A DNA stretch of 56,260 bases. It comes from an uncultured bacterium. Lineage in GTDB: Bacteria; Cyanobacteriota; Vampirovibrionia; Gastranaerophilales; Gastranaerophilaceae. Under the pieces are notes generated by a model, which worked only from the letters and a program-made list of their open reading frames with translations, ran no database searches and was not told where the DNA came from. Of the stretch, positions 22,441 to 26,470 are shown one piece after another. Each line of letters begins with the position of its first letter. Position 1 is the stretch's first letter. The translations under genes were made by a program, and so were the position numbers. The DNA lies in the NCBI GenBank assembly GCA_947361225.1, contig CANAIK010000004.1, positions 1-56,260 on the forward strand. Reading direction: 5' to 3'.

Positions 22441-22968
22441 ATGGAAGAAAAGATTAAAAAAATTAGAAGTATGATTCGAGACGTTCCGGATTTTCCCAAA
22501 AAAGGAATTCTGTTTAAAGACATAACAACCGCACTTTTAGACGCACAAACACTAAAACTCAGCGTTGATTGTATTTATGATGTTTTTAAAGACAAAAAAA
22601 TCGATTATATCGCAGGGATTGAATCCCGTGGGTTTATTTACGGGATGCCCCTCGCTTATAAGTTTAACTGCGGGTTTGTTCCGATAAGAAAACCAAACAA
22701 GCTCCCCTGTGAGGTAATTAGCGAAGAATATGACCTTGAATACGGGAAAGATAGAATTGAAATTCATAAAGATGCACTTAAAAAAACAGATAGAATCCTA
22801 ATTGTGGACGATTTATTAGCAACAGGAGGAACAGCGCTCGCTGCAATTAATTTAATTAAAAAAGTTGCAAATCCGGTTGGAATTTCTTTTGTTATCGAAC
22901 TTGAGAATTTAGGCGGAAGACAAAAACTCCCACAGGACGTTGAAGTTTTTTCATTGGTTAAATATTAA
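22441..22968 (+). CDS. apt: Adenine phosphoribosyltransferase
   Basis: 175 residues. It salvages adenine with PRPP to AMP. Motifs: IRDVPDFPKKGILFKDITT at the N terminus, GIESRGFIYG, VPIRKPNKLP, and the PRPP loop RILIVDDLLATGGTA. It has Shine-Dalgarno AAGGG and a TAGAAT box upstream. The VIT-domain gene begins 20 bases after its stop, so it probably heads the transcript that also carries the exosortase pair. No functional link to them is apparent. Confidence 0.95.
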   Translation: MEEKIKKIRSMIRDVPDFPKKGILFKDITTALLDAQTLKLSVDCIYDVFKDKKIDYIAGIESRGFIYGMPLAYKFNCGFVPIRKPNKLPCEVISEEYDLEYGKDRIEIHKDALKKTDRILIVDDLLATGGTALAAINLIKKVANPVGISFVIELENLGGRQKLPQDVEVFSLVKY

Positions 22969-22988: not shown

Positions 22989-25445
22989 TTGGATAAACTA
23001 AAAAAATTTTTGAATATTTTTTCCTATGTTTTTAACGCAATTTATCTGTTTTTATGCTTTCCTTTTGCCCTTTCTTTATTTGAAATGCAAAATACGGCTT
23101 TTAATTTAATGGCTCCTTTAGGTTTGGTTTTTTTATTGCCCTTGGGGTTTTTCCTTCTGGTTTCTTTTAAAAAAACAAGAGTGCAATCCCTTAAGTTCTT
23201 TTTTGGAGTAGAAATTCCACTTTTGTTTCTATCTTTATTTAGAATAATTTTTCTAAGGGAACTTACTTTTTTCTATATTTTCTTGCTTATAAGTATTATT
23301 CTTACAATTGCTCTTTTTTCGATTAATCTTTTTAATAATAAAAAATTCGAGAAAATTAGCGTTTATATATATGAAATCCCAGTTATTCTATGCGCTTATT
23401 TTTCAATTCTGGCGCTATTTTTCATTATTCCCTTATTAATTCTTTTAATAAAATCCTTATTAACTATAAATTATTTTAATTTAATTGCTCAATTTATGGA
23501 ATTTTTAGTTTCGATAGATTTTTCCGAAATTATCGGAGCTATTTATCTTATCCTTCTATTAATTTTCTTTCTATTAGTTACAGCACTTTTTTTCCTAAGT
23601 CCCATTACAAGTGTTATTGTTTATTGGAAACAATTTATTAGCGAATATAAAAAAACTAACAATAAGAAAAACTGCATTATTTTTGCTTTTATTTATATTG
23701 TCTTTTTCTTCCTAAGTTCGATTTATATTCCGGATTCCAGTTTTGATAAGGATTATAAAGCGCTTTTGAGTGCAAAAAACTATAATGAACTAAAAAAAGT
23801 GCAAATTAGTCCTATTAAAGAATTTTTCATTAAAAAAGCCTATTTAAACAACTACTTAGCCTCTCAAAGATTCGTTTTTGATGAGAATTCGGATTTTGTT
23901 GAATTTTTATTCGAAGAAGCTTTCGATTATAAACAAATAGGAACCTTTGCCCAATTTTTATTCAACAAAATCGCCTATCCTTTCTATTATCCCGAAAGTT
24001 TTAGGAATAATAGAATTAATGATAAATTTGTCGAGTTTTTTAACGACGATATTCAGGTTTATTATAAGGATTCAATAAAAAACAGTATTGATTCAACTTT
24101 CTTTAACAAAAACACAACCGCAACCCTTTTAGACATTGATTCTAAGGATGTTTTTGTTAAGAATCGAACAATAAAAATCAACAAAACAAAAACCGATTCA
24201 ATATATAAAGTTTCTTATCTTGAAAGTTACAAGAATCGAAAAAACGACCAAAAAGAAGTTTATTATGAATTCTCATTACCTAAAAACGCAGTTATTGTGG
24301 GTTTGAGCCTTGGCGATAAATTGCAATACAAAGGGGTTATCTCTCCTAAGAATGCTGCAAGAAAAACTTACTTAGCGCAAACTCAAAGAAGACAAGACCC
24401 GGCTTTGTTAGAAAAAAATGGCCCGATTCAATACACGCTAAGGGTTTTCCCAATTCCACCCAAAAGACAAAAGCAGAATCAAAAAGTAGAATTTGAATAT
24501 CTGGTTTATTCGCTGGACGGCGTTATTCCCCTGCCCAATTTTTCTCAAGTGAGAAACGCAAATTTTAATTATTTATCAAAAGAATCAATTATTTACAATA
24601 ATTCAATAAAATTAAAGAAAAAAGACAATAAAGTTTTTGTAAAAACCGCTAAATCCTCTGGAATTAACTATCCTAGGGATAAAAAAATCGCAATTTTATT
24701 CGATAGTTCATATTCTAACAAAACAAATTGGAAGGAATTTACAAAAAACGAATTATCAATGATTGAAAAAAATAATTCGGTTGATTATTACTTTTTTAAT
24801 AAATTCCTAAGTCCAAAACTTAATTCTTTGGATAATCAAAGGAATTATTCAAAAAGCGCAAGATACGACGCTTATTGTTCTTTAGATAATGACTATGATT
24901 TATCAATAATGTTTACAACAAACAGCGTTTTTGATTATTCTAAGTTTAATCCTTGCAAAAATAACTTCCCTTTATATGTTATCCATTTAAGTAAAACTAA
25001 TTCAATTCCTCCTTATACAAAAGCAATGAGCGAATTAATTTATCGCACTAAAGGCGCAATCGGGTCAAGTTTAGAAGAAGTTTTTCTCGATAATACAATA
25101 AAACCAGATTCAGGTTCAACTGAGACTCAAGTTTTTAATTCTAAAGAAAAAATTGATTCTTTGCTACCAGATAAAAAAGAAGAAATTTTCGATATTGCAA
25201 AAAAATACAATATTGTATCTGATTATTCCTCTTTAATTTCTTTGGTTAGCGAAAATCAAAAAAAACAACTTGAACTAAACGAAAAACAAAAGGATAAATT
25301 CGACGCCGATTTATTAATCGGAAAAGAAACGGGTTTCCAGGAAAAAAGCGATATTAAAACGGTTCCTGAGCCGCAGGAGTATTTGTTTATTATTCTTCTA
25401 TTCCTGTTTACAATAATTATCACGAAGAAAAAAAGAAAATGCTAA
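22989..25445 (+). CDS. VIT/vWA-like membrane protein with C-terminal PEP-CTERM-like sorting signal (dedicated exosortase substrate)
   Basis: 818 residues from a TTG start with AAGGAT upstream. The N-terminal half has about seven TM helices (within residues 10-245). A VIT-like domain (about 385-510) follows, with YYEFSLPKNAVIVGL, KNAARKTYLAQ, RRQDPALLEKNG and RVFPIPP. Next is a vWA-like region with a MIDAS-type DSSYS (D572, S574, S576). The tail is VPEPQEYLF: PEP at 793-795, a hydrophobic helix (about 798-812) and a basic end KKKRKC, the tripartite PEP-CTERM pattern. The next gene is an exosortase overlapping by seven bases, so this protein is very probably its target. VIT-domain proteins paired one-to-one with an exosortase have been described (XrtN-type systems, from memory). 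Confidence 0.82.
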   Translation: MDKLKKFLNIFSYVFNAIYLFLCFPFALSLFEMQNTAFNLMAPLGLVFLLPLGFFLLVSFKKTRVQSLKFFFGVEIPLLFLSLFRIIFLRELTFFYIFLLISIILTIALFSINLFNNKKFEKISVYIYEIPVILCAYFSILALFFIIPLLILLIKSLLTINYFNLIAQFMEFLVSIDFSEIIGAIYLILLLIFFLLVTALFFLSPITSVIVYWKQFISEYKKTNNKKNCIIFAFIYIVFFFLSSIYIPDSSFDKDYKALLSAKNYNELKKVQISPIKEFFIKKAYLNNYLASQRFVFDENSDFVEFLFEEAFDYKQIGTFAQFLFNKIAYPFYYPESFRNNRINDKFVEFFNDDIQVYYKDSIKNSIDSTFFNKNTTATLLDIDSKDVFVKNRTIKINKTKTDSIYKVSYLESYKNRKNDQKEVYYEFSLPKNAVIVGLSLGDKLQYKGVISPKNAARKTYLAQTQRRQDPALLEKNGPIQYTLRVFPIPPKRQKQNQKVEFEYLVYSLDGVIPLPNFSQVRNANFNYLSKESIIYNNSIKLKKKDNKVFVKTAKSSGINYPRDKKIAILFDSSYSNKTNWKEFTKNELSMIEKNNSVDYYFFNKFLSPKLNSLDNQRNYSKSARYDAYCSLDNDYDLSIMFTTNSVFDYSKFNPCKNNFPLYVIHLSKTNSIPPYTKAMSELIYRTKGAIGSSLEEVFLDNTIKPDSGSTETQVFNSKEKIDSLLPDKKEEIFDIAKKYNIVSDYSSLISLVSENQKKQLELNEKQKDKFDADLLIGKETGFQEKSDIKTVPEPQEYLFIILLFLFTIIITKKKRKC

Positions 25446-26470
25446 AAGTCCTAAGTTTTCTTGCTTTAACTACCTTAATCTTAAGTTTTTTTAGAAAAGA
25501 TTTGGAAAACAGGCTTTTTTGGCTTTTTTCGATTTTTTTTCTTTTGTTAACAAAAGAATATTTCCAAATTTTCCCAGGAACCCCTTTGCGTCTTATTTGC
25601 GCCAGCACGTTGGAAAAAATTTTCAATTTTTTTAATATCACTTCAATAACAGATAGCACAATTCTAATTTTTGAGAATAATATTCAACAAATCGATTACC
25701 CTTGCTCCGGGTCTTTAGTGCTTTTTTATAGTTTGTTGTTTTCGTTTTTGGTTTGTTTAATTTTTAATTCAAAACTCAATTTTTCCCTTATTGCAAAGTT
25801 AATTCTGGTTAGTTTATTATCAATTTATTTAAATACGTTAAGAATTTTTGTTCTCATTCTTCTTAATTTAAAAGGTTTTTTGTTTTTTAGCAATAAAATT
25901 CACGCACTTTTTGGAATTATTAACTATATTCTGGTTTTAGGGTGTTTTTGGTTTTTTATTAAAAATAATTCGAAAAAAAACGAATCCGACAACAAAAACT
26001 ATTTATCCAAATCGATTCTGGCTGTATTTTTTGTTGTTATAAGTTTTTTATATTATGTTAAGATAAAAACCCCTAATTCCAATCCTCAATTCGAAATTAT
26101 TAAACACGAATCTAAACAAAACCTTGATTTTTCGACCCAGGAAATTGTTTATTATAGAAAACAAGGGGCGAAGATTGAAAAATATAAAGAAGGAGAAAAA
26201 ATTGTAGTTAAAATCGCCTCCAATTCACCATTAACGATTCATAATCCTTTAATTTGCTTGAAGAATCAGGATTTTAGAATTATTGAACAAAAAACGATTA
26301 TGACAGACGAAAAGGGCTTTAAAAAACGCTTAACAACCAACAAAGGAATAATTTATTATTATTTTATCGAAGAAAACGGGAAAATTACGGACGATTATTA
26401 TAAAATCGCCTTTTTGTCGTTATTTAATAACAAAAAGGCGGTTCTTGTGGTTGAATATATTGTTAGCTAA
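25439..26470 (+). CDS. Exosortase with fused EpsI-like C-terminal domain
   Basis: 343 residues. The membrane part (about 1-175, multiple TM helices) carries the exosortase catalytic triad pattern: Cys in YPCSGS (C89), Arg in NTLRIF (R135) and His in KIHALFG (H155). This is a transpeptidase-like membrane enzyme thought to cleave PEP-CTERM tails. After a further TM (about 191-205) a soluble domain follows (about 210-343). It contains TIHNPLICLKNQDFRI, which resembles the H-x-P-x-x-C motif of EpsI domains often encoded beside or fused to exosortases. Its ATG lies inside the 3' end of the VIT-protein gene. Its stop overlaps the convergent adk stop. Confidence 0.85.
   Translation: MLKVLSFLALTTLILSFFRKDLENRLFWLFSIFFLLLTKEYFQIFPGTPLRLICASTLEKIFNFFNITSITDSTILIFENNIQQIDYPCSGSLVLFYSLLFSFLVCLIFNSKLNFSLIAKLILVSLLSIYLNTLRIFVLILLNLKGFLFFSNKIHALFGIINYILVLGCFWFFIKNNSKKNESDNKNYLSKSILAVFFVVISFLYYVKIKTPNSNPQFEIIKHESKQNLDFSTQEIVYYRKQGAKIEKYKEGEKIVVKIASNSPLTIHNPLICLKNQDFRIIEQKTIMTDEKGFKKRLTTNKGIIYYYFIEENGKITDDYYKIAFLSLFNNKKAVLVVEYIVS

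Follow-up and report, generated by a model that had tools for sequence, protein, structure and literature searches.

Exosortase catalysis is poorly characterised biochemically, partly since most systems have many targets. A one-to-one arrangement is known for XrtN, where a single exosortase goes with a VIT-domain target in a pairing like that described here, and in the marine proteobacterial system defined by TIGR03788 a VIT protein also lies beside a dedicated sorting enzyme, which is a true sortase and not an exosortase. In photosynthetic cyanobacteria the exosortase XrtO is encoded next to a TIGR02921 protein, a polytopic substrate with VIT and vWA-like regions and a PEPxxW tail, and both of these families have already been modelled by NCBI. 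The cyanoexosortases CrtA and CrtB belong to the same phylum and superfamily, and CrtB serves many PEP-CTERM proteins (PMC12188702). The approximately seven transmembrane helices ahead of the VIT domain are a defining oddity of the modelled family TIGR02921, and Haft (2006) mention one family, of three members, in which the PEP-CTERM proteins are integral to the membrane (PMC1569441); a polytopic PEP-CTERM substrate is therefore not new in itself. Our search of a limited literature for XrtO, TIGR02921 or exosortases in melainabacteria found no relevant paper.

We describe here a locus in the window, the whole 56,260-nucleotide stretch of DNA that was analysed, from an uncultured bacterium of the Gastranaerophilaceae. 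We consider it likely that its two genes are a dedicated exosortase–substrate pair of the XrtO/TIGR02921 kind, in which the enzyme would process the tail of the substrate. What is new is the occurrence of such a pair in a non-photosynthetic relative of the cyanobacteria, where it is the only exosortase system, together with a reversed gene order, a clade of shortened enzymes and a tail motif linked to XrtO.

The two genes and their products

The positions of both genes and of their overlap are as originally predicted, as is the identity of the products, an exosortase adjoining a PEP-CTERM protein with a VIT domain (Table 1).

Table 1 Features of the locus, with positions in the window
Feature	Position	Strand	Basis
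apt-like gene, 20 bases 5' of the pair	22441..22968	+	ORF list and translation
Gene for the substrate, an 818-aa TIGR02921 (PEP_integral) protein	22989..25445	+	233.4 bits, cut-off 200
Seven N-terminal transmembrane segments, residues 10-247	23016..23729	+	hydropathy and loop charge; pattern repeated in four relatives
VIT domain, residues 395-494	24171..24470	+	PF08487, 59.1 bits
DSSYS, MIDAS-type DxSxS of the vWA-like domain, residues 572-576	24702..24716	+	invariant in 30 aligned proteins
Third-loop MIDAS aspartate, lost in the window copy alone	24915-24920		IMFTTN, against IMLTD kept in 29 relatives
PEP-CTERM tail: VPEP (792-795), hydrophobic helix, KKKRKC	25362..25442	+	direct reading, second TIGR02921 stretch, relatives
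ATGCTAA, 7 bases shared by the substrate stop and the exosortase start	25439..25445	+	sequence reading
Exosortase, XrtO-related, 343 aa, without ~110 N-terminal XrtO residues	25439..26470	+	profiles, alignment, tree
Catalytic Cys89 codon, IDYPCSG	25703..25705	+	alignment
Arg135 codon, LNTLRI	25841..25843	+	alignment
His155 codon	25901..25903	+	alignment
Exosortase C-terminal non-membrane domain, residues 210-343, HNPxxC	26066..26467	+	alignment

The substrate gene starts at a TTG with an AAGGA about 10 bases 5' of it. Its product matches TIGR02921 with an E value of 5e-69, and a second matched stretch (model positions 836-922) takes in the tail. Both traits of this family, several N-terminal transmembrane helices and a PEP-CTERM tail, are found, and the seven hydrophobic segments ahead of the VIT domain bear out the earlier reading of a polytopic protein. 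An eighth hydrophobic helix spans residues 794-812. Positive charges alternate from loop to loop, which predicts a cytoplasmic location for the N-terminus and the KKKRKC end and a periplasmic one for the 546-residue VIT region, and the same helix layout recurs in relatives from genera g5 and g20 and in two cyanobacterial members. The C-terminal tail, IKTVPEPQEYLFIILLFLFTIIITKKKRKC, has PEP at 793-795 followed by the hydrophobic helix and basic end, as had been read directly from the letters.

The description of the protein as vWA-like holds in part. DxSxS is a motif typical of vWA metal sites and is invariant in the alignment. The T/S-D found about 70 residues further on in 29 of the 30 aligned members is T-T in the window copy, so that the third-loop aspartate is lost there. 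The Pfam scan gave no vWA match in the substrate, and the label "vWA-like" therefore rests on motif and spacing. AlphaFold2 models of the two proteins from three-sequence alignments had mean pLDDT values of 42.6 and 35.2, too low to be of use.

The downstream protein belongs to the exosortase/archaeosortase superfamily (PF09721, 41 bits, cut-off 25.7; TIGR04178, 27.2 bits, cut-off 23), and C89, R135 and H155 of the proposed triad are invariant, with no exception, in the alignment with its relatives. Among NCBIfam models XrtO (TIGR04489) ranks first at 93.9 bits and XrtN (TIGR04476) second at 64.7 bits, both below their cut-offs of 250 and 200; the relatives score 117-154 bits against XrtO and are likewise below its cut-off. 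These scores, the tree and the passing of TIGR02921 by the substrate place the pair with XrtO/TIGR02921 and not with XrtN, to which it had been likened. A reading as a marine sortase target was also rejected, the substrate scoring 31.7 bits against the TIGR03788 cut-off of 551.65. A weak, sub-threshold DUF3485/EpsI match (PF11984) in the C-terminal domain was confined to two relatives, the proteins of L083 and L085.

The match to the XrtO profile does not begin until position 112 of its 451, and the full N-terminal membrane half is not present. Of the ~110 residues, which form four hydrophobic segments in the g5 relative, little or nothing is left, and the open frame 5' of the exosortase start offers just 23 further residues, without a helix. 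The enzymes of g20 are equally short (333 aa) and those of g5 and g193 have ~464-485 aa, so the short form is confined to two genera including that of the window. The short forms cluster together in the tree (support 99/88), for which reason the shortening probably happened once. Neither the short N-terminus nor the rarity of the pair, even in its own genus, was part of the original prediction.

The ATGCTAA overlap suggests translational coupling of substrate and exosortase. The gene just upstream, which from its sequence resemblance we take to encode an adenine phosphoribosyltransferase (apt), possibly shares one transcript with the pair, and the 3' end of the exosortase gene reaches four bases into a convergent adk-like gene. 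The neighbours in the window are housekeeping genes. The GC content of the pair is 27-28%, against 35-37% for the adjoining genes, which would fit transfer but also the base composition that genes for membrane proteins have where the genome is AT-rich.

Genome-wide search for other targets

The genome of 1.9 Mb (95% complete, 98 contigs) yielded a single exosortase, a single TIGR02921 protein and a single recognisable PEP tail. The generic PEP-CTERM models TIGR02595 and PF07589 did not match the tail of the window, and the sub-threshold match of TIGR02595 elsewhere in the genome sits inside an unrelated transporter-like protein. Since TIGR02595 missed the true tail, a custom model was used, built from 14 tails with the window tail among the seeds. 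Its sole strong match in the genome was that tail (E 9e-13, the tail being itself a seed); the others were weak matches to the hydrophobic part, with E of 0.3 and above. The genome has eight VPEP-coding sites, a number equalled by chance with a reversed control pattern, and only at that of the substrate do hydrophobic residues and then a basic end follow, closing a real gene; the seven others are not tails. Neither the pattern searches nor the custom model thus found a second PEP-CTERM tail or another exosortase target in the genome. On these counts the pair looks dedicated, as was originally proposed, and appears to be the whole exosortase system of the genome; given the completeness of the assembly and its 98 contigs, a further target could be missing from it.

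Distribution and inheritance of the pair

The pair is carried by 9 of 383 genomes of the same family, in four genera, and in all nine the substrate gene comes first with the exosortase gene directly 3' in an overlapping frame. Some of these loci end at a contig or locus edge, yet both genes are visible. Among the genomes listed for the window genus at least 20 are without the pair and only G475 has it; since this copy, found on a small contig, shares 98.8% DNA identity with one from g5, it may be contamination or misbinned. At the adk loci of the same genus other than that of the window, the pair was absent within ~1.5 kb of adk in all 19 examined. The chromosomal setting of the pair differs between genera: the window has apt and adk beside it, g20 has an mtnN-like gene, g5 has rpoB and an asd-like gene, and g193 has a tpiA-like gene. 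In another genome of the genus, G481 (L148:5122-9427), the two genes that lie 5' of the pair in the window are inverted beside adk; the region 3' of adk is therefore rearranged within the genus. A protein of 226-241 aa with a signal-peptide-like start and no assigned function (L061:5013-5735, minus strand) is conserved divergently 5' of the pair in G110, G178, G553 and G475.

VPEP is conserved in seven of the eight other family carriers. The eighth, G657, a genome 84% complete, has STVQEPQDW (L159:1-1221), with the first P of PEP replaced by Q, and its near relative G600 has VPEP. The VQEP is either a natural variant or an error in an incomplete genome. Neither of the two conditions named beforehand as refuting the original prediction, a triad that fails to align with exosortases and a PEP tail not kept in orthologues, was thus observed.

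In the enzyme tree the exosortases of the family form one clade (100/99), sister to cyanobacterial XrtO (100/96), although the tree program flagged long branches in this and the substrate tree and the sister placement carries a long-branch warning. They are set apart from CrtA/B and from the exosortases that the other families of the class possess. The substrates of the family also form one clade, and both trees share the branching order of window plus g20 against g193 plus g5, so that the pair has been inherited, or travels, as a unit. A scan of viral contigs gave no match, and among plasmids the one TIGR02921 protein detected, from Nostoc, had no exosortase next to it.

Among the g20 pairs computed, dN/dS ranges from 0.13 to 0.18 in the short enzyme and from 0.11 to 0.18 in the substrate, so that selection maintains the short enzyme within this genus. 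This bears on an alternative in which the pair is decaying, with enzyme helices and MIDAS aspartate lost, so that the window copy would be nonfunctional and the copies of the relatives would work. The ~110 residues missing by comparison with XrtO and the g5 and g193 enzymes, the loss of the aspartate in the window protein alone of 30 and the long end branches in both trees all fit such decay, but both frames are open, the start/stop overlap is intact, triad and VPEP are retained, equally short enzymes are under purifying selection in g20 and the two genes remain together at ~40% identity to those of g20. We regard decay as improbable.

Proposed function

For a working, dedicated pair we infer cleavage, an acceptor and a biological role along the following lines. 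Coupled translation would bring the two proteins together in the inner membrane, the substrate being inserted by its seven N-terminal helices with the VIT/vWA-like domain on the periplasmic side and the PEP tail serving as an eighth, temporary helix. The exosortase, using Cys89 with Arg135 and His155, would cut at or near VPEP, so that the tail helix would be removed or replaced and the new end possibly transferred to an acceptor. The product would stay anchored by its N-terminal helices, with its periplasmic C-terminus freed or newly linked. Because seven helices remain, the processed substrate could not be released, unlike ordinary PEP-CTERM proteins, and processing would therefore switch or anchor the VIT/vWA-like domain rather than export it. 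A further proposal, which we find doubtful, is a minimal self-contained system: a two-gene unit handed on among non-photosynthetic relatives, with one shortened XrtO-like enzyme (minus four helices) and one seven-helix target whose membrane domain may replace the missing helices.

The pair might also work by attaching the processed substrate to exopolysaccharide, as proposed for EpsH/XrtA and CrtB, in line with the linkage of exosortases with exopolysaccharide genes (PMC1569441, PMC12188702). We think this quite improbable, in that the search of the genome found no Wza-type exporter (PF02563), the neighbours of the pair are housekeeping genes and a seven-helix protein would be unable to leave the inner membrane. 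A two-gene system with a single short enzyme and a single target offers a convenient setting in which to follow the effect of an exosortase on a C-terminus.

Relation to the cyanobacterial pair and the tail motif

The locus extends the XrtO/TIGR02921 pair to a non-photosynthetic sister group of the cyanobacteria. The window shares with the cyanobacterial systems the adjacent genes, the polytopic VIT/vWA-like substrate, the tail (PEPQEY in place of PEPxxW) and, in the enzyme, the C/R/H triad and C-terminal domain. It differs in that cyanobacterial XrtO is encoded 5' of its substrate and has ~510 aa, whereas the window enzyme is 3', overlapping and shorter, and in that most cyanobacterial XrtO genomes also have CrtA/B-type exosortases.

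Outside the family, 22 genomes of the phylum sample carry TIGR02921 above its cut-off. Twelve have an XrtO-like exosortase, directly 5' of the TIGR02921 gene in 11 and apparently split from it by a contig end in one; the other ten have CrtA/B-type enzymes only. The two cyanobacterial TIGR02921 neighbours that were scanned scored 547 and 387 bits against XrtO, above its cut-off of 250, and are true XrtO. Of the 12 TIGR02921 proteins encoded in genomes with XrtO, 11 carry PEPxxW, as against 1 of the 11 encoded where XrtO is absent (Fisher p 1e-4, uncorrected for relatedness). Within the family the motifs are PEPQEY in the window, PEPEQW in g5, PEPEDW or PEPQDW in g20 and PEPKEQ in g193, so that W or Y stands third after PEP in the window and in all g5 and g20 tails. 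Since PEPxxW follows the presence of XrtO, these tails suggest recognition by XrtO of an aromatic residue at the third position after PEP, and the motif is a likely recognition feature; in the limited literature we know of no report of this. That the tail is a mere membrane anchor and the exosortase acts on another target is very unlikely: our literature search found no paper on TIGR02921 or XrtO and hence no recorded cleavage, but this tail motif tracks XrtO in cyanobacteria, the genes are linked in nine of nine carriers and the genome searches gave no other tail or target.

In the ten photosynthetic cyanobacterial genomes with TIGR02921 and without XrtO (L063-L067, L071-L074, L084, L086), the tails are mostly VPEPG or VPEPSGGW in place of PEPxxW, and another exosortase, perhaps CrtB, may therefore serve these proteins. 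In a second family of the class of the window organism, f3, with large genomes (L005-L026, L028-L051), exosortases of 460-560 aa occur with at least one VIT protein. The majority of these enzymes form a clade of their own near XrtO, and in the one genome compared (G036) the exosortase and VIT genes lie far apart.
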